Of a stretch of 64,000 nt of DNA, positions 7,291-40,296 are shown in pieces. The stretch's first letter is position 1; each line of letters opens with the position of its first letter. The stretch is from Acidobacteriota bacterium (GTDB lineage: Bacteria > Acidobacteriota > Holophagae > Holophagales > Holophagaceae), in NCBI GenBank assembly GCA_014189895.1, contig BJFQ01000001.1, positions 1 through 64,000 of the forward strand, read 5' to 3'. Both the position numbers and the translations under genes were made by a program. Below the pieces are notes generated by a model. That model saw nothing but the letters and a program-made list of their open reading frames with translations, did not search any database and was not told the origin of the DNA.

Positions 7291-8013
7291 CTATTTAGGG
7301 GGTAATTCGAGGATCAAACTCATCGCTTCATGAGATAAAACGCCAAAGACTTGACGAAGCAAAGCCGGGGTAAGAACTTGGGCTGGCGTCCCGGAGGCTA
7401 TCAAATTCCCTTGATCCAGTAAAACGACTTGATCCATGCAGTGGGCAACTCTTAAGTCATGGAGTGAAATCAGAATGGTAGAACCCGAGTTAGCCATCAT
7501 TCTTGCTTTCATGAGAATTTCTAACTGATGCCGAATATCAAGAGAGGAAAGGGGCTCATCCCAACACTGGATAGGAGCTTGCGTGACCATAGCGCGGGCC
7601 AACAAAGTGCGTTGCTTTTCGCCCGTACTAATTTCGGTGACGGGCCGATCCTCAAGGGTCAATAAATCCATTTCTCTTAAGTAAGGCTCAAGATTATGAA
7701 CATCCTCACCCCAGGCGAAGCGACCCATGCGAAGAACTTCTTGAACAGTGAAAGGAAATTGAAAATTAGTTTCAGGGCCGACCCATGCGAGCTGCTGAGC
7801 TCTTTGAAAGATCGGAATATCCTGAAGGTTAAACCCGTTCCAGATCACCTCTCCACTATAGGGAAGCAAGCCCGAAATAGCCTGGAGCAGTGTGGATTTA
7901 CCCGAGCCATTCGGGCCGACAATGGCGATTAATGATCTGGGTTGAAAGGTAAGCGACATCGAATTTAAACGATGCTCTACCTGAAGATCTTTTATTTTGA
8001 GGGTGGAATTCAT
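7291..8013 (-). CDS. btuD: Vitamin B12 ABC transporter ATP-binding protein
   Basis: 240 residues with Walker A GPNGSGKST, Q-loop in AWVGPETNFQF, Walker B CWDEPLSSLD and the H-switch in ISLHDLRVAH. The signature is a variant ISTGEKQR in place of LSGGQ. It powers import through BtuC across the inner membrane. ATG 8013 overlaps the permease stop as ATGA, so it is preferred over the ATG at 8037. The B12 assignment is by context: last gene of an operon with a cobalamin riboswitch and a BtuB-like receptor. By sequence alone it could be an iron-siderophore ATPase. Confidence 0.9.
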   Translation of the reverse strand: MNSTLKIKDLQVEHRLNSMSLTFQPRSLIAIVGPNGSGKSTLLQAISGLLPYSGEVIWNGFNLQDIPIFQRAQQLAWVGPETNFQFPFTVQEVLRMGRFAWGEDVHNLEPYLREMDLLTLEDRPVTEISTGEKQRTLLARAMVTQAPIQCWDEPLSSLDIRHQLEILMKARMMANSGSTILISLHDLRVAHCMDQVVLLDQGNLIASGTPAQVLTPALLRQVFGVLSHEAMSLILELPPK

Positions 8014-8987
8014 ACGGCACGCTTTTGGAGAAGCCAAAGAAAGAAGGGCCCGCCAATCAATGAAGTGATAACCCCAACCCGTAAACCCACATTAAGTACC
8101 CGAGACATCAAATCACAGCCAAGAAGAAAGGCTGCTCCCCCGATGAGACAACATGGAATCAGCCGTTTATGGTCAGGCCCTAAAAGAAGCCTGAGAATAT
8201 GAGGGACGATTAGGCCCACAAAACCTACAACTCCTGCTACAGCAGTGGCCACGGCAGTTAGGATAGTAGAAAGAATGATCATCTTCCAACGAAACTGACG
8301 AACATTAACTCCTAAACTCTGGGCTCCAGATTCACCCAAGCTCAAGAGATTCATAGGTGAGCCCATGGAGGTAATGAGAAACCCAAGGAGTACAACCGGA
8401 GGCAAGCTTACCCATACATGCTCCCAAGTCCGATCTTCAAGACTGCCAAGTAGCCAAAATAATATCTGACCCGAACGCTCAAACGATGAAACGGAGAGCG
8501 ATAAAACAAAACTAGTGGCGGCCCCCAAAAGGGCATTGAGGGCAATACCGGCCAGAAGAAGTCTCTGGGTTCCCAAGCCAATCTCTGAAAGCGATAAGAC
8601 GAGGAGCGTAGCCAGGAAAGCTCCTGCGATCGAAGCACTAGGAAGCCCCCACATTCCCAACATATTGGAGCCATATCCAATATAAAGAACAGCTCCTAGG
8701 GCTCCTCCGGTTGAAACCCCGAGTAAACCCGGGGAGGCTAGGGGATTTTTAAAGTAGGCCTGCATCATCAAACCCGAAATGGAGAGGCTAGCTCCAACCG
8801 TCATTGCGACTAAAGTGCGGGGTAGACGGATATTCCAAAGAATACTTTGTACTACGGGATCGGTATGCGTCAGTCCTTCCCATAATTCACCAAAAGATAG
8901 GCTCACTTCCCCCCAAATAATCGATGCAAAAAATAAAACTCCCAAGGTGAGGCTAAGCAATCCTAGGATGAGTGGATATTTTTTCAA
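8010..8987 (-). CDS. btuC: Vitamin B12 ABC transporter permease (FecCD/BtuC family)
   Basis: 325 residues, strongly hydrophobic, with about 9-10 membrane segments. It carries family landmarks: IRLPRTLVAMTVGASLSISG near residue 52, NPLASPGLLGVSTGGALGA, and the coupling-helix region GFVGLIVPHILRLLLGPDH near the C-terminus. It forms the channel for B12 together with BtuD and BtuF. It overlaps the upstream binding-protein gene by 4 bases and btuD by 4 bases, so the operon is translationally coupled. Substrate is inferred from the operon's riboswitch. Confidence 0.92.
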   Translation of the reverse strand: MKKYPLILGLLSLTLGVLFFASIIWGEVSLSFGELWEGLTHTDPVVQSILWNIRLPRTLVAMTVGASLSISGLMMQAYFKNPLASPGLLGVSTGGALGAVLYIGYGSNMLGMWGLPSASIAGAFLATLLVLSLSEIGLGTQRLLLAGIALNALLGAATSFVLSLSVSSFERSGQILFWLLGSLEDRTWEHVWVSLPPVVLLGFLITSMGSPMNLLSLGESGAQSLGVNVRQFRWKMIILSTILTAVATAVAGVVGFVGLIVPHILRLLLGPDHKRLIPCCLIGGAAFLLGCDLMSRVLNVGLRVGVITSLIGGPFFLWLLQKRAV

Positions 8988-9826
8988 CGGAACGACTCGG
9001 GATGAAGTTGTTGGGCCATCATCTCATATCCTCGAATTCGACGGTGGGTAACACTGGATAAAAGTACTTCAGGGAGTATGATGACTCGCCCCATTTGGGT
9101 CGCCGATAAGATCCCAAAGGAAGGGTGTTTTCTTAGGGTGGCTATTTTCTCAGAAACGCGAATATCCGAGAGAACTAAGCAGTCTACCTTCCATCGCATT
9201 AGAGCCTCTGTGGGAGTCGGGCTGTGGCCGCGGAGGCCTGCTTCTCCCGCTACATTGATCGCCCCTGCATGGTTACATAAATCCTGAAACGTAGTTTCCG
9301 TTCCGGCAAGGTAATTTTGAGAAGAAGGGGCTAATACCCGACGAGGGATAACGCCCTGTATACGCTTTTGGAGAACAGAGACCCGAACTTCACATTGGCG
9401 GATGAGAGACTCTGCCGCCTGAACTCTACCGATCGCCTTACCTAGTTTACGAATATTCTCATAAACATCTTCGAGCGTATTAAAACGATCAAAGACTAAA
9501 ATTGGAATCCCCGCTCTTTTGATTTGTTCAACTAGTTCGGGTCTGGAGTAATTGGTAAATAAAACTAAATCCGGTTTGTACTTAAGAATTTGCTCTGCGC
9601 TTCCGTCCTGAACTTGGGGAAACTTTTGCGCTACTAGAACAATATCTGAATAGGCTGGGTTCTTGGATAAGAAACTCAGAGCAGCAATTCGATTAGGCTC
9701 GCAAAGATCGATTAATAATTCATCAGTCCCAACGGTTTGCGACACAATTCTCTGAGGAAGCCCTTGGGACCAAAGTAGGGCACTACAGAGGAGGCTGAGA
9801 ATGATGTGTCGCATAGGAAGCCGCAT
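8984..9826 (-). CDS. btuF: Periplasmic vitamin B12-binding protein
   Basis: 280 residues with a signal peptide (MRHIILSLLCSALLWSQG, from Met5) and a helical-backbone binding-protein fold (Peripla_BP_2/TroA-like). Recognisable are QRIVSQTVGTDELLIDLC, YKPDLVLFTNY and the long connecting helix around NIRKLGKAIGRVQAAESL. It would carry B12 from the receptor to BtuCD. The start overlaps the btuB stop (TAATG) and the stop overlaps btuC (ATGA). The first ATG is given; Met5 at 9814 is equally possible and gives a tighter signal peptide. A related but cytosolic domain occurs fused to endonuclease III at 38896-40296. Confidence 0.88.
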   Translation of the reverse strand: MRLPMRHIILSLLCSALLWSQGLPQRIVSQTVGTDELLIDLCEPNRIAALSFLSKNPAYSDIVLVAQKFPQVQDGSAEQILKYKPDLVLFTNYSRPELVEQIKRAGIPILVFDRFNTLEDVYENIRKLGKAIGRVQAAESLIRQCEVRVSVLQKRIQGVIPRRVLAPSSQNYLAGTETTFQDLCNHAGAINVAGEAGLRGHSPTPTEALMRWKVDCLVLSDIRVSEKIATLRKHPSFGILSATQMGRVIILPEVLLSSVTHRRIRGYEMMAQQLHPESFR

Positions 9827-11856
9827 TAGAAAAGATACTTCATACCCAGGCTCACGATCGGAGCTTGGGCTGGAAATCCGTAGAGCTGCTGGGCATTATT
9901 CATAAAATCATATTTTCGAGATAACCAATCCTGGAGTGTCACCCTAGGCTGCAACAAATGCTGCCCCCGCAGGCTGACCTCTAATGATGAACTCTGTGAC
10001 CAATAAAGCCCGATGCTGAGATGCTGAAAAGGGTGTCGATAGGAGCCTAACCGGGCTGGAAAACCTCCAAAATTATCGTAATGGCTTCCAGAATAGCTCC
10101 ATTGAAGATTGGCGCGAACTTCCTTCCATTCCCGATCAATGCCCAGTGAAAGAATATTGAAGGGGCGCCGAATAGAAGCGCTCGTGATCAACTGCTGTGC
10201 CTCGGGAGCATCTAACTGTCGGGCTTCTTGATTGCGATAAGACCCCCTAGCATTCCAACCATCTCCACGATAGGTCACAATCATTTCGGCACTCTGTATT
10301 CTTAAGTTCTGCCCATTGGCATAATCGTAAGAATTGAGATCAAAGTAGACGAGATTACGATGAAGTAATCGAGATAATTTGAATTGAAGATCATACCGAT
10401 CCCAATGAGTTTCATAGCCGACATGGACAAAAGAGCCTTCTTCCTTGTCCAGCTTCGAATAACGGGTCGGATCGTACCCATAACTATTAGGGTCGAGCAT
10501 ATTTTGCGCATGATAAAGGCTGCTAGTCAGGGGGGCTAAGTTGAATCCTGTGCCCAAAGAGATAAACCATTTTTCGTCTTGGCCGATCCATTTCTCTGCA
10601 GGAAGATACGTTACACCAAAGCGCCAGGTGCGAGCTCGAGATGATAAGGGTTCAATGTTGAATCCAGATGAGGCAGTCGTGAAATTTTGCTTGTCGCGAT
10701 CTTCACGCAAGGTAACAAGGAAACGAAACGCTTTAGAGGCTTGCCAATGAGACTCGATCGCATTAGACAAGTGACTAGCTGAACCACGATCTTCGCCTGA
10801 AGGATAGGCGGGAGTCTTTGCCTGTTCTTGGAATAATTCAAGCCGGTAAGCAAAGGATAGATCTGTCGACGGTTGCCACCGGGCTTTCAGGCCGCCTTCC
10901 GTTCTTTGACTTTCATAGGGGTCATATCCAGAGTTGTCATATTTAGGTTCTAGTCTTGATTGAGACGAAGATCCAAAGTAAAGAGAAAGGGGGATGGAAT
11001 TGGGGAGAATCGTTTCATAACGTAAGCTTAGTTGCTCATTGCGAAGCTTGAAATTTCGACTCGCATCATAGTCGGACGAGCGTCGAGCACTGGGGCCTAA
11101 TTCAACCCTCACGTAAGGGATTGGGACCCCTTGATAAAAGTTTCGATAGTCCAGATAGAAAGTGTGATCGCCCACCACTTGGCCTAAGCCTAATTGAGTC
11201 CCGATACTACGATAGTTTTGGGCCGTCGGGGTCGGCAGTGCTTCTCGGTTAGCATCAATGGAACTTCGAAGCCAACCTCCGCTCCATTGCGTTCGTAAGG
11301 AAGACTTTAGATTTTGATAGGCCTGATTTCCTATGACAAGGTCGAAACTATTTTTTTCATTTTCAAGAGGGTTCCCATCTGTATACAGCGCAATGACGCC
11401 GCCCATCGCTCCTGAACCTACCAATGTTGAGGCATTGCTTTCAATGATCTCAATGCGTTTAACACCAACGAGAGAAATACTATTGGGATTTACAGATCCT
11501 AATCCTGCGGCGTCGTTGATTCGAATACCATTCAGCAAAACTGTGACGTCCTCGGGGCGACTGCCCCCGATACGCAGGGTTGCTGCGGAGCCAGGCCCTC
11601 CCGTGGACAAGACCTGTCCAGGGACCGCGGAGACTAATAAGTCCCCAAGCGTCTTGGCTCCGTATCGTTCAATATCCGCCTGTGTAAGAACACGGACATG
11701 ATTAGGAGTCTTTCGCAGGTCGACCTGATCGAATTCAGCCGTAACCGAAACAACAGCTGAAAGCCCCTTTTTGACCTGAGATTCACTCAGGGAAGATTCT
11801 TGTCCCCTCAGAGATAGGGCTAGGAGTAAATAAAAAGGAAATGAGAAAGATTTCAC
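9826..11856 (-). CDS. btuB: TonB-dependent vitamin B12 receptor
   Basis: Outer-membrane gated barrel for corrinoid uptake, 676 residues from GTG 11856. A signal peptide (VKSFSFPFYLLLALSLRGQE) is followed by a plug domain (DIERYGAKTLGDLLVSAVPG, LRIGGSRPEDVTVLLNGIRI, IEIIESNASTLVGSGAMGGVI) and a beta-barrel that ends in the terminal aromatic YLF. The GTG is chosen because GGAGG lies 6 nt upstream and the signal peptide then begins correctly. The ATG at 11943 would add 29 unrelated residues and sits at the edge of the riboswitch. Control by B12 is expected to repress synthesis. No tonB, exbB or exbD is in the window. Confidence 0.93.
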   Translation of the reverse strand: MKSFSFPFYLLLALSLRGQESSLSESQVKKGLSAVVSVTAEFDQVDLRKTPNHVRVLTQADIERYGAKTLGDLLVSAVPGQVLSTGGPGSAATLRIGGSRPEDVTVLLNGIRINDAAGLGSVNPNSISLVGVKRIEIIESNASTLVGSGAMGGVIALYTDGNPLENEKNSFDLVIGNQAYQNLKSSLRTQWSGGWLRSSIDANREALPTPTAQNYRSIGTQLGLGQVVGDHTFYLDYRNFYQGVPIPYVRVELGPSARRSSDYDASRNFKLRNEQLSLRYETILPNSIPLSLYFGSSSQSRLEPKYDNSGYDPYESQRTEGGLKARWQPSTDLSFAYRLELFQEQAKTPAYPSGEDRGSASHLSNAIESHWQASKAFRFLVTLREDRDKQNFTTASSGFNIEPLSSRARTWRFGVTYLPAEKWIGQDEKWFISLGTGFNLAPLTSSLYHAQNMLDPNSYGYDPTRYSKLDKEEGSFVHVGYETHWDRYDLQFKLSRLLHRNLVYFDLNSYDYANGQNLRIQSAEMIVTYRGDGWNARGSYRNQEARQLDAPEAQQLITSASIRRPFNILSLGIDREWKEVRANLQWSYSGSHYDNFGGFPARLGSYRHPFQHLSIGLYWSQSSSLEVSLRGQHLLQPRVTLQDWLSRKYDFMNNAQQLYGFPAQAPIVSLGMKYLF

Positions 11857-11877
11857 TTCATGCCTCCACGCATGAAG
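11856..11877 (-). promoter_or_regulatory. Hairpin displaying the btuB Shine-Dalgarno in its loop
   Basis: Read on the minus strand, CUUCAUGC and GCAUGAAG form a perfect 8-bp stem around the loop GUGGAG. The Shine-Dalgarno GGAGG spans the loop and the first base of the descending arm, and the last base of the stem is the G of the GTG start. It is placed where a translational expression platform of the B12 riboswitch would act; the mechanism is inferred. Confidence 0.6.
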
Positions 11878-11943
11878 CCAAGGAAATGAGTTGGAACTAA
11901 AGTCCAATGACGCAAGCCCCCCGGCTAGGTTAATGATGTTCAC

Positions 11944-32994: not shown

Positions 32995-35466
32995 TTGGTT
33001 TACCGACAAGTATTGATCACAGGCCTGATTGTATTGATCAACCAACTGCAAGGCCAAGACTTCCTTCTAGCTGGGCGGGTTCTTCACCCAAACGCTGAAA
33101 AGCCTTCTCTCTTTTCGATCCAATTGGTAGACAATGCCAAGTCCGTCAAGTCTGTTAATTTGAATCAAGACAGTAGCTATCGTTTTCAAAGCCTATACCC
33201 AGGTAATTATGAACTTTATGTTACCAAGATCGATAAAGTCATATTCAAAAAATCTATCCAAATATACTTACCGATTACTAATTTAGATATAGATCTGAAT
33301 TCACTTCCATCAGCTAAAATTGAGATCACAGATTCTCTATACATGGCAACGGATATTTCCTTAGGAAAATTGAAGAGTCCCATAAAACAACTCCCTCAAA
33401 CGATCATAGTGATTCCCTCTTCCGTTATTGAAGAAACAGGATTGCGACGCCTAGACCAAGCACTTGTAAATGTTAGCGGTGTCGTTCCTAGCTCGTCATC
33501 GAATTATGGTTTTTTTGATCATCAATTAATTCGAGGCTTAAACGCTACTTTTACAAGAGAAGGCCTAAACGATGGACCCACATTTATGGGATATGCACGA
33601 TCATTAGCGGACGTTGAACAGATTGAAGTTTTTAAGGGACCTGGCAGCGCCCTTTTTGGCAGTGCCGGTGGTGGTGGCACCATCAACCTCACGATGAAAA
33701 AGCCAAAAAGAGACTCGGTGACGATCGGCGATTTTTCCCTGGGTGGTTTCAACTCATTTAGGGGTATTGTCGATTCAACTGGACCTATTAATGAGCGTTG
33801 GTCGTACCGGGTTATCGGCAATATCGGGAAATCGGATGGATTTAGAAAACTATCATCTTCAACCAATGAATGGACTGGTTCTTTACTTTGGTTGCCAACA
33901 GAGTTTCAATCTATTTTGTTGACGATAGAAAATCGACATTTGGAATTAACACCAGATGCAGCAGGTATTCCTTTTCACATGAGCTCATATCGAAACTCAT
34001 CAGGAAATTATCCATTTCATGATCCAACAATTATAGATGTGAATAAAAACACTTCGTACGTCTCTCCCATGGCATCGAGCGTCACTGATATCTTTAGGAT
34101 TTCGCTCAGTTATAGTCATCACCTAGGCACCCATCTTAGGTGGGAGACAAATCTAGCTTACGGAACTCGCTCACTAGATTTATATCGAAATTGGAGTATT
34201 CCTGATTTTAGGGATTCGGCTGGTGCTCCCATTCTAAGTAATCGATATCTACGAAATCAACATGATCGTTTCACCGATAAAAGCCTTCAAACATTTGTTA
34301 CTTGGCAAGGGGATCTAGGGGGATATGGACATAGAATTCAATTAGGAGCTGATGTATTTAAATCTGATATATCAACTAATCGAAGACAGGCTAAATTTGC
34401 GCCTGTCTTAGATGCTTATAATCCGATCCTTCCTGAGACCGGAGCAGATCTCACAAATGCTTGGGCATGGATATTTAATCGATCAATTTCTGCTAGACAA
34501 TCTGGTCTCTATGTCACAGATCAATGGACCATCAATGATTTTTTAAAAATACGAACTAGTTTACGCCAAGATCACTATCGCATGATAGACGAAGGGTTAT
34601 ATAACAATTTAGGTAAGAACTCTTTCACGGAGTTGCTTAATTCCAGAGGGCAGTTTTATACTCCGATATTCGGCCTTAATAATTTGAATACAGCCCTAAC
34701 CAAAGAGAATCCATTGACCACGAAAACTAATTTTAATAATGGACAGATTGGTATAGTTTTCGACCCTGCTCATAATACGAGCTTCTTTATAGGTACATCT
34801 TGGGGAAGATTGGCCAATTTAACGACTGAAGATCTACGGACAGCTACGCTACCTGAAAGTAATCGGCAACTCGAACTAGGTAATCGGTTGCAATGGTTCG
34901 AAAATAAATTAAACCTTGCTCTTTCAATATTCAGGACAATTAGATTTAATGTTGATAACTTAACTCTTGTCTCAGGAAATTTGATCGTCACGCAAACACC
35001 AGAACAGCGTATCGACGGCTTAGATTTAGATTTTAGGGCACGACCCCTTTCCGGATGGTTCATTCTTGGGGCTTGGTCTTGGATGAAGCCCATTTATACC
35101 GAGCCATCAACTTCGGAGTTGTGGCTAAAGGGACAGCAACTCGCAGGTGCTCCAAAACGAACTGGACGACTGTGGTCTAGTTACGAGATCCAAGAGGGAG
35201 ATTGGCGTGGCTGGGGGATTGGTTTAGGTTTTCGCCATAGAGATAATATCAAAATAATATTTAGAGATGGACCTCCGAATAGTATTGGTATTATCCCTGG
35301 GTATAACGTATTGGATGCAGGTATTTTTTATCGAGCACAATCATGGGATATCCAGTTAAATCTTAAGAATTTCTCTGACCAAACTTATTGGTCCTATGGC
35401 ATCATCAATGCTGCAGTACCCGGAGAAGGCCGAAACATGACTCTCGATTTCCGTTATCGCTTCTAA
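32995..35466 (+). CDS. TonB-dependent siderophore-type receptor
   Basis: 823 residues from TTG 32995, with GGAGG 5 nt upstream. Signal peptide ending LQGQD, then a small carboxypeptidase-regulatory-like beta domain (about residues 22-105). The plug follows (LPQTIIVIPSSVIEETGLRR, QLIRGLNATFTREGLNDGP, VEQIEVFKGPGSALFGSAGGGGTINL), and then a FhuA/FpvA-like barrel ending in FRYRF. It would import a ferric chelate. Bases look AT-richer than in neighbouring genes, and no transport partner is adjacent, so late acquisition is possible. The substrate is unknown. Confidence 0.9.
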   Translation: MVYRQVLITGLIVLINQLQGQDFLLAGRVLHPNAEKPSLFSIQLVDNAKSVKSVNLNQDSSYRFQSLYPGNYELYVTKIDKVIFKKSIQIYLPITNLDIDLNSLPSAKIEITDSLYMATDISLGKLKSPIKQLPQTIIVIPSSVIEETGLRRLDQALVNVSGVVPSSSSNYGFFDHQLIRGLNATFTREGLNDGPTFMGYARSLADVEQIEVFKGPGSALFGSAGGGGTINLTMKKPKRDSVTIGDFSLGGFNSFRGIVDSTGPINERWSYRVIGNIGKSDGFRKLSSSTNEWTGSLLWLPTEFQSILLTIENRHLELTPDAAGIPFHMSSYRNSSGNYPFHDPTIIDVNKNTSYVSPMASSVTDIFRISLSYSHHLGTHLRWETNLAYGTRSLDLYRNWSIPDFRDSAGAPILSNRYLRNQHDRFTDKSLQTFVTWQGDLGGYGHRIQLGADVFKSDISTNRRQAKFAPVLDAYNPILPETGADLTNAWAWIFNRSISARQSGLYVTDQWTINDFLKIRTSLRQDHYRMIDEGLYNNLGKNSFTELLNSRGQFYTPIFGLNNLNTALTKENPLTTKTNFNNGQIGIVFDPAHNTSFFIGTSWGRLANLTTEDLRTATLPESNRQLELGNRLQWFENKLNLALSIFRTIRFNVDNLTLVSGNLIVTQTPEQRIDGLDLDFRARPLSGWFILGAWSWMKPIYTEPSTSELWLKGQQLAGAPKRTGRLWSSYEIQEGDWRGWGIGLGFRHRDNIKIIFRDGPPNSIGIIPGYNVLDAGIFYRAQSWDIQLNLKNFSDQTYWSYGIINAAVPGEGRNMTLDFRYRF

Positions 35467-38895: not shown

Positions 38896-40296
38896 ATGGC
38901 CCGCACCGCAGAAGACTTAAGAAAAATTCAGACACAACTGAACAAACTCTATCCTGAAGCAATTTGCATGTTGGAACATCGCAATGCTTATGAGTTAACC
39001 GTAGCCACTATATTAAGTGCGCAGTGTACAGATGCTCGAGTCAACATCACTACGCCACCATTATTTAAGAAATACCCGACTCCAAATGCCTTGGCGTCTG
39101 CCAAAACGAAAGACGTTGAAAAACTGATTAAACCTACTGGCTTTTATAAAAATAAATCGAAGTTTCTCATCGCCATGGCACAACGAGTGGTGCGTTATCA
39201 CCAAGGGAAAATTCCTGGTCTGGCCCAAGACCTGATTCAACTACCGGGAGTTGGGAAAAAGACGGCTAATGTCGTCCTCAGTAATGCCTTTGGAATACCC
39301 GCCATGGCTGTTGATACCCATGTTGGAAGGTTGGCTCGTCGACTCGGCTTAAGCTTTTCGAAGAATCCTGACCGCGTCGAAAAAGATCTATGCAGTTTGT
39401 TTAGCAAAAAGACATGGACGCTCCTGCACCATCAACTCATTACCCATGGTCGAACAACGTGCAAAGCCCAAAGCCCCCTATGTAATGACTGTTTGCTACA
39501 GCCTCTGTGCCCAACGGGACTCCGCGAGAAAAAAGATCCCCACACGGGACGCTGGGTGAAGACCCCCGAGCGAGTTGTCAGCCTTGTGCCCTCCGTCACC
39601 GAGCTCTTATGCCAATGGGGGCTAGCCTCATCCTTAGTCGGGAGAACCAATTACTGCATCCATCCAGCTAAAGTATTAGAAAAGATACCTAAAGTCGGAG
39701 GAACCAAGAACCCAAGACTCAAGGATATTTTGGCCGTGAAACCCACCTTGGTCATTCTCGAGCGGACTGAGAATACTCTAAAAATAGCCCAAGAATTGGA
39801 AGCGGTGAGGATCCCGATTCTCGTTCTCGATGTGACAGATTGGAAGAGTTGGATCAAAGCGTACCAACTCATAGGCCAACGCCTTCATCGGGAATCTAAG
39901 TCCAAGCAGTCTATTGTAGAACTCAAAAGATCGATTCGTGGCCAAGGGGCCAAGCCTCTCAAAGTTCTCATACTCGTTTGGAAATCACCCTGGATCCTTG
40001 CCGGCTCCCAGTCGTACTGCGGAGGGTTGGTTCAAGCCTTGGGGGGCCGTATTCTTGGTAATACCAACAAGTCCAAGAGCTATCCGCAGCGAGCTCCCAA
40101 AGACCTGGAAAGACTTAATCCCGATCTGATACTCCTGCCTACCGAACCCTATCCTTTTAATGAAAGAGAGCGGCAAGAACTTGAAAAATCATTCCCTAAA
40201 AGTAAGGTAGACATTATCAATGGGGAACTTTTGACGTGGTACTTGAGTCGAACCTCTATGGCACTCCGATATTTAAAGCGAAACTACTTTACCTGA
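38896..40296 (+). CDS. nth: Endonuclease III fused to a cytosolic BtuF-like helical-backbone domain
   Basis: 466 residues in one uninterrupted frame. Residues 1-212 are a complete Nth DNA glycosylase/AP lyase: ATILSAQCTD, helix-hairpin-helix LPGVGKKTANVV with the catalytic Lys, AVDTHVGRLARRLG with the catalytic Asp, and the 4Fe-4S loop C-x6-C-x2-C-x5-C. After a short linker (KKDPHTGRWVKTPE), residues about 224-466 match the cytosolic relatives of BtuF: RVVSLVPSVTELLCQWGL, LVGRTNYCIHP, VGGTKNPRLKDILAVKPTLVI and LNPDLILLPTEPYPF. No signal peptide is present. Base-excision repair is clear; the second domain's ligand (corrinoid, metal chelate or none) is unknown. The 3' end overlaps dsbD by 13 bases. 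Confidence 0.93.
   Translation: MARTAEDLRKIQTQLNKLYPEAICMLEHRNAYELTVATILSAQCTDARVNITTPPLFKKYPTPNALASAKTKDVEKLIKPTGFYKNKSKFLIAMAQRVVRYHQGKIPGLAQDLIQLPGVGKKTANVVLSNAFGIPAMAVDTHVGRLARRLGLSFSKNPDRVEKDLCSLFSKKTWTLLHHQLITHGRTTCKAQSPLCNDCLLQPLCPTGLREKKDPHTGRWVKTPERVVSLVPSVTELLCQWGLASSLVGRTNYCIHPAKVLEKIPKVGGTKNPRLKDILAVKPTLVILERTENTLKIAQELEAVRIPILVLDVTDWKSWIKAYQLIGQRLHRESKSKQSIVELKRSIRGQGAKPLKVLILVWKSPWILAGSQSYCGGLVQALGGRILGNTNKSKSYPQRAPKDLERLNPDLILLPTEPYPFNERERQELEKSFPKSKVDIINGELLTWYLSRTSMALRYLKRNYFT

Follow-up and report, generated by a model that had tools for sequence, protein, structure and literature searches.

The locus at positions 38896–40296 (+) of the window, by which we mean the whole 64,000-nucleotide stretch analysed, raises the question of why a DNA-repair enzyme carries a domain with the fold of a substrate-binding protein. 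The gene is a single ATG-to-TGA frame of 466 amino acids with no internal stops. A sequence-only reading had described one uninterrupted frame joining a complete endonuclease III (Nth) to a second domain, and both the open reading frame and the scores of two curated models (TIGR01083 and NF038402, given below) agree with this; the same scores rule out a chance overlap. The fused protein has no signal peptide, and the TroA-like domain follows the cytosolic Nth on one chain, which bears out the further proposal that both halves are cytosolic. The source genome is a 1.17 Mb draft, estimated at 97% complete. Full-length fusions are present in two further genomes of the same genus (73% and 80% identity; an Acidobacteria MAG and Holophagaceae bacterium HTM.8), and fusions about 48% identical to the window protein occur throughout the Holophagaceae, single-contig genomes included. 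A sequencing error or a chimeric contig at the junction is ruled out by the dozens of independent genomes that have the fusion, closed ones among them.

The first half of the protein (residues 9–205; 38920–39510, +) is an Nth domain with a helix-hairpin-helix (HhH) motif and a 4Fe-4S loop, matching endonuclease III structures in the PDB by both sequence and fold. The endonuclease III equivalog TIGR01083 scores 250 bits on residues 9–196 (cut-off 211.7) and Pfam HhH-GPD 87 bits, while Foldseek returned endonuclease III structures (1orp and 2abk). Alignment to E. coli Nth (taken from NC_000913) placed the catalytic residues at Lys122 (39259–39261, +; E. coli K120) and Asp140 (39313–39315, +; E. 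coli D138). The HhH motif reads LPGVGKKTAN, and the cluster cysteines are arranged as C189-x6-C196-x2-C199-x5-C205 (39460–39510, +); the catalytic pair and the four cysteines are invariant in 41 fusions. The fold, the catalytic Lys/Asp and the 4Fe-4S loop are those of endonuclease III from E. coli and B. stearothermophilus (1orn/1orp), to which the window protein adds a DPHxG tail, a linker and a 240-residue C-terminal domain. The Nth-type genes of the source genome are the fusion and one weak relative in a 398-residue frame, which is most likely MutY. The N-terminal half would then be the organism's only endonuclease III, predicted to perform the usual removal of oxidised pyrimidines. MutY itself offers a possible analogy, as an HhH-GPD-superfamily DNA glycosylase that also has an extra domain after the Fe-S loop, in its case a C-terminal NUDIX-like domain that recognises 8-oxoG. 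The added domains are, however, unrelated, and the TroA-like domain has no sign of DNA contact.

The second half (residues 226–449; 39571–40242, +) is a complete cytosolic TroA_like domain with a class-III substrate-binding-protein fold. It matches NF038402 (TroA_like, 'helical backbone metal receptor') at 124.7 bits, against a cut-off of 30, and Pfam Peripla_BP_2 at 65 bits. Foldseek aligned the AlphaFold2 model of this half with heme-, iron- and B12-binding proteins, with BtuF (1n4a) giving the top TM-score of 0.82, and the predicted structure has the same bilobal TroA fold with a backbone helix as BtuF (1n4a, 1n2z). It differs from BtuF in lacking a signal peptide or lipoprotein anchor and in the motifs of the C-terminal lobe. 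The proposed 'BtuF type' of the domain is therefore correct for the fold, with the function a separate matter to which we return below.

The relatives that share its sequence signatures are stand-alone cytosolic TroA_like proteins (also NF038402) from Bacteroidota and from the sister family of the Holophagaceae. These have YCxxP, GGTK, EN, W..P, EPxxF and DG...W in common with the window domain at 26–35% identity, differing in that they are free proteins rather than fused behind Nth. Score alone sets this cytosolic branch apart from periplasmic substrate-binding proteins (261–335 versus at most 148 bits). Four signatures are constant across fused and stand-alone copies: C254 and P257 of YCxxP (39655–39666, +), GGTK at residues 268–271 (39697–39708, +), with T270 at the position of BtuF W66, EN at residues 292–293 (39769–39774, +), and E417, P418 and F421 of EPYPF (residues 417–421; 40144–40158, +). 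The fusions have kept the pocket-type residues by which the stand-alone branch is defined: S229, P232, S233, T235, C254, P257, GGTK 268–271, E292, N293, W362, P365, Y396, P397, E417, P418, F421, G443 and W448. Several of the invariant residues common to both kinds of protein map to pocket positions of BtuF or next to them, and so suggest a conserved predicted pocket for a ligand different from that of BtuF and more polar. With an invariant Cys, Lys, Glu-Asn and Glu, such a pocket suggests a metal ion or a small polar metal chelate rather than cobalamin.

We found a TroA_like match in 63 of 77 genomes of the Holophagaceae, a family of soil and sediment bacteria. Fifty-eight of these matches are in open frames of at least 460 residues, and the five short ones are apparent pieces at contig edges. 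In 43 distinct genomes, several of which are single-contig assemblies, BLAST against translated frames showed the two domains to share one frame. One condition set as refuting the earlier reading, the absence of the fusion from every other genome, does not hold. Contig-edge pieces aside, no unfused cytosolic TroA-like copy was seen within the family. A joint Nth and TroA_like match was absent outside the Holophagaceae among the matches listed from 396 Acidobacteriota genomes, and the fusion was not found in Bacteroidota (99 genomes and four more reached through loci). Stand-alone cytosolic BtuF-like proteins had been said to exist, and we observed them as separate signal-peptide-less genes: in 40 of the 99 sampled Bacteroidota, and in the sister family, where the protein starts at the first strand (MKLVSLCPSITRLL) with no space for a signal peptide.

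The fusion was not known to the sequence-only reading as a described architecture, and our literature search, which covered few of the subscription journals, found no description of Nth with TroA_like; automated databases may already list the architecture. Two known kinds of domain are newly combined here, and the combination is well conserved within a single family. Through the whole history of the Holophagaceae, a core DNA-repair enzyme has been a stable carrier of an extra predicted ligand-binding domain, and the fusion points to a cytosolic branch of the BtuF/TroA fold that is widespread yet uncharacterised.

The phylogeny of the TroA domains places those of the fusions in one clade apart from the stand-alone proteins (support 100/99). 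In a species tree built from Dxs and NuoF, the genus of the window lies beside the fused genus g10. Since fused genera are found on every deep branch of this tree, and the unfused ones (g2, g3, g5, g9 and one g8 genome) are scattered in it, the fusion most simply arose once, in the ancestor of the Holophagaceae, and about four losses of the domain followed. The pattern needs about four changes, three of which are forced by well-supported branches, and a single clade of all unfused genomes was rejected (p-AU 5e-5, or 3e-4 with the g8 genome left out). Two separate origins, or genera that were unfused from the start, are disfavoured by these AU tests and by the monophyletic TroA tree. The suggestion of a simple fusion of neighbouring genes found no support: in Bacteroidota, Nth and TroA_like are encoded separately, either on two contigs or, where one contig holds both, at a distance of at least about 80 kb, and there was no nth among the open reading frames around the stand-alone gene in the sister family.

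How the two halves are joined bears on how they could work together. The DPHxG tail (residues 214–218) and a short linker to residue 225 occupy 39535–39570 (+). The tail is also present in unfused Holophagaceae Nth (DPH in some), where the protein ends soon after, and no TroA-like remnants were found 3′ of nth in the unfused Holophagaceae genomes. Across the fusions the linker is 15–66 residues long (31–66 elsewhere in the family), Pro/Ala-rich and unconserved in sequence. AlphaFold2 modelled the full fusion, using 41 fused homologues, with a pLDDT of 88.3 and a pTM of 0.61, compared with 93.2 and 0.89 for the second domain alone. The predicted protein is two well-folded domains of uncertain mutual orientation, with no fixed interface predicted.

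Because the linker is variable and no fixed interface is indicated, we consider a bifunctional protein with tethered halves more likely than tight allostery. Specifically, our preferred reading, with a probability of roughly 0.55, is a bifunctional cytosolic protein with a probably metal-type ligand. The C-terminal half, from a branch of the TroA/BtuF fold that has been little studied, lacks a signal peptide and stands alone elsewhere, most likely keeps the predicted ligand-binding job of the stand-alone protein and would be carried on a flexible tether. The halves appear to be loosely tethered, given a linker that can be as short as 15 or as long as 66 residues and the survival of Nth in about four lineages that lack the domain, and we infer that they function independently.

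The leading alternative, though a less likely one, is ligand-controlled repair, in which the TroA-like domain would sense a metal ion, a heme-like compound or another chelate and tune Nth through its activity, its binding of DNA or its Fe-S status. This would fit with the single polypeptide seen in all domain-bearing Holophagaceae that have a complete gene, and with the strong constraint on the predicted ligand-pocket residues. That a one-time fusion has been kept through most of the family with no re-split copy also hints that the physical link itself matters. Within Nth, two columns (T52 and D27) follow the presence of the domain: Thr occupies residue 52 (39049–39051) in 43 of 43 fusions, six of seven unfused Holophagaceae have Val or Ile there, and two outgroups have Val. 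This pattern could reflect coupling of the halves, but it provides only two to three independent contrasts and the covariation is not significant (sign test p 0.5). The flexible, length-variable linker, the low confidence in domain orientation and the roughly four losses with Nth retained also speak against control. In its most specific form, a base-excision enzyme gated by its ligand, a TroA-fold domain taken over from a cytosolic protein would sense a small molecule or a metal and thereby set Nth activity, which we regard as rather unlikely; to our knowledge, the direct coupling of a DNA glycosylase to a sensor of the substrate-binding-protein type has no described precedent. If a ligand is found, the Holophagaceae provide a natural experiment, because closely related genera share this Nth but differ in whether it carries the domain.

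The domain might instead bind cytosolic iron or another metal and help to load or protect the 4Fe-4S cluster of Nth. The enzyme requires this cluster, the fold is one used for iron and heme binding, and the domain has an invariant Cys and two invariant Glu. Such a hand-over is nevertheless improbable, as most endonuclease III proteins, including those of the sister genera, do without the domain, and no association of the stand-alone branch with Fe-S genes was seen at the loci surveyed.

Corrinoids are the ligand that the resemblance to BtuF first brings to mind, and the surroundings of the gene seem to fit. A BtuB-like TonB receptor, a substrate-binding protein, a BtuC-like permease and an ATPase form an operon at about 7291–11943 (−), and the genome has B12-binding-domain proteins. 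The operon had been called a true B12 uptake operon; the operon itself is there, and its assignment to B12 is likely, with scores below the equivalog cut-offs. (A second TonB-dependent receptor, siderophore-receptor-like, lies beside the nuo genes at 32995–35466 (+), scoring 157 bits for TIGR01783, below the cut-off of 223.5.) Against a corrinoid stand the residues themselves. The positions of BtuF W66, W85 and W196, which we take to be its B12 contacts (W66 is also named in PDB titles), are Thr in 43 of 43 fusions, Glu in 43 of 43 and Tyr in 41 of 43; the window protein has these three residues. Likewise, the presumed permease-docking glutamates of BtuF, E72 and E202, are not conserved, being Glu in only 4 and 13 of the 43 fusions, and the window protein has Lys in place of both.

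Gene content gives the same picture. QueG, B12-binding-domain proteins (PF02310) and the BtuC-type permease (FecCD) occur in domain-bearing and domain-lacking genera alike, and all 26 Holophagaceae checked have at least one FecCD permease, the sole one in most, fusion or no fusion. None of the three follows the loss of the domain in at least three lineages, and a B12 link by co-occurrence was rejected. The ligand of the second domain is probably not vitamin B12, and a role in sensing B12 or another corrinoid, or one linked to transport, is very unlikely. The name 'BtuF-like' is right for the fold but not for the function. The earlier hint at B12 or cofactor control of repair is not supported, with the tryptophans and docking glutamates unconserved, the losses untracked by B12 genes and no sign of a fixed allosteric interface.

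Selection acts on both halves of the protein. In the genus of the window, the TroA half has a dN/dS of 0.07 and the Nth half one of 0.09; for the other pairs in which dS was unsaturated, the values were about 0.14–0.26 and 0.05–0.12, respectively. As these ratios are low (about 0.1), both halves are constrained, and both are under purifying selection even where genomes are reduced, as in the window's genus, which retains the TroA-like domain at 0.9–1.2 Mb. That the C-terminal half is a functionless passenger left by an evolutionary accident is hardly credible when dN/dS is far below 1, the pocket motifs are invariant over the family and the domain persists in strongly reduced genomes, even with about four losses and the two genes unlinked outside the Holophagaceae.

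The neighbourhoods of 43 stand-alone TroA_like loci (Bacteroidota and sister family) contained no universal partner and no recurrent repair gene. The neighbours vary by lineage, and from reading their sequences we named them as a fructosamine kinase with a low-molecular-weight (LMW) phosphatase, or as PyrF-like or Mpl-like proteins. Fructosamine-kinase-like and low-molecular-weight-phosphatase-like genes lie next to TroA_like in one Bacteroidota group, at about 10 of the 43 loci (L154, L156, L161, L162 and L164 among them), and this neighbourhood is a possible lead to the function of the stand-alone protein. In a single genome of the sister family (L070:5726–6871), the stand-alone TroA_like gene and a second gene overlap tail to tail; judged from its N-terminal sequence, the second gene is MutT-like and of the NUDIX family that cleans up 8-oxo-dGTP.
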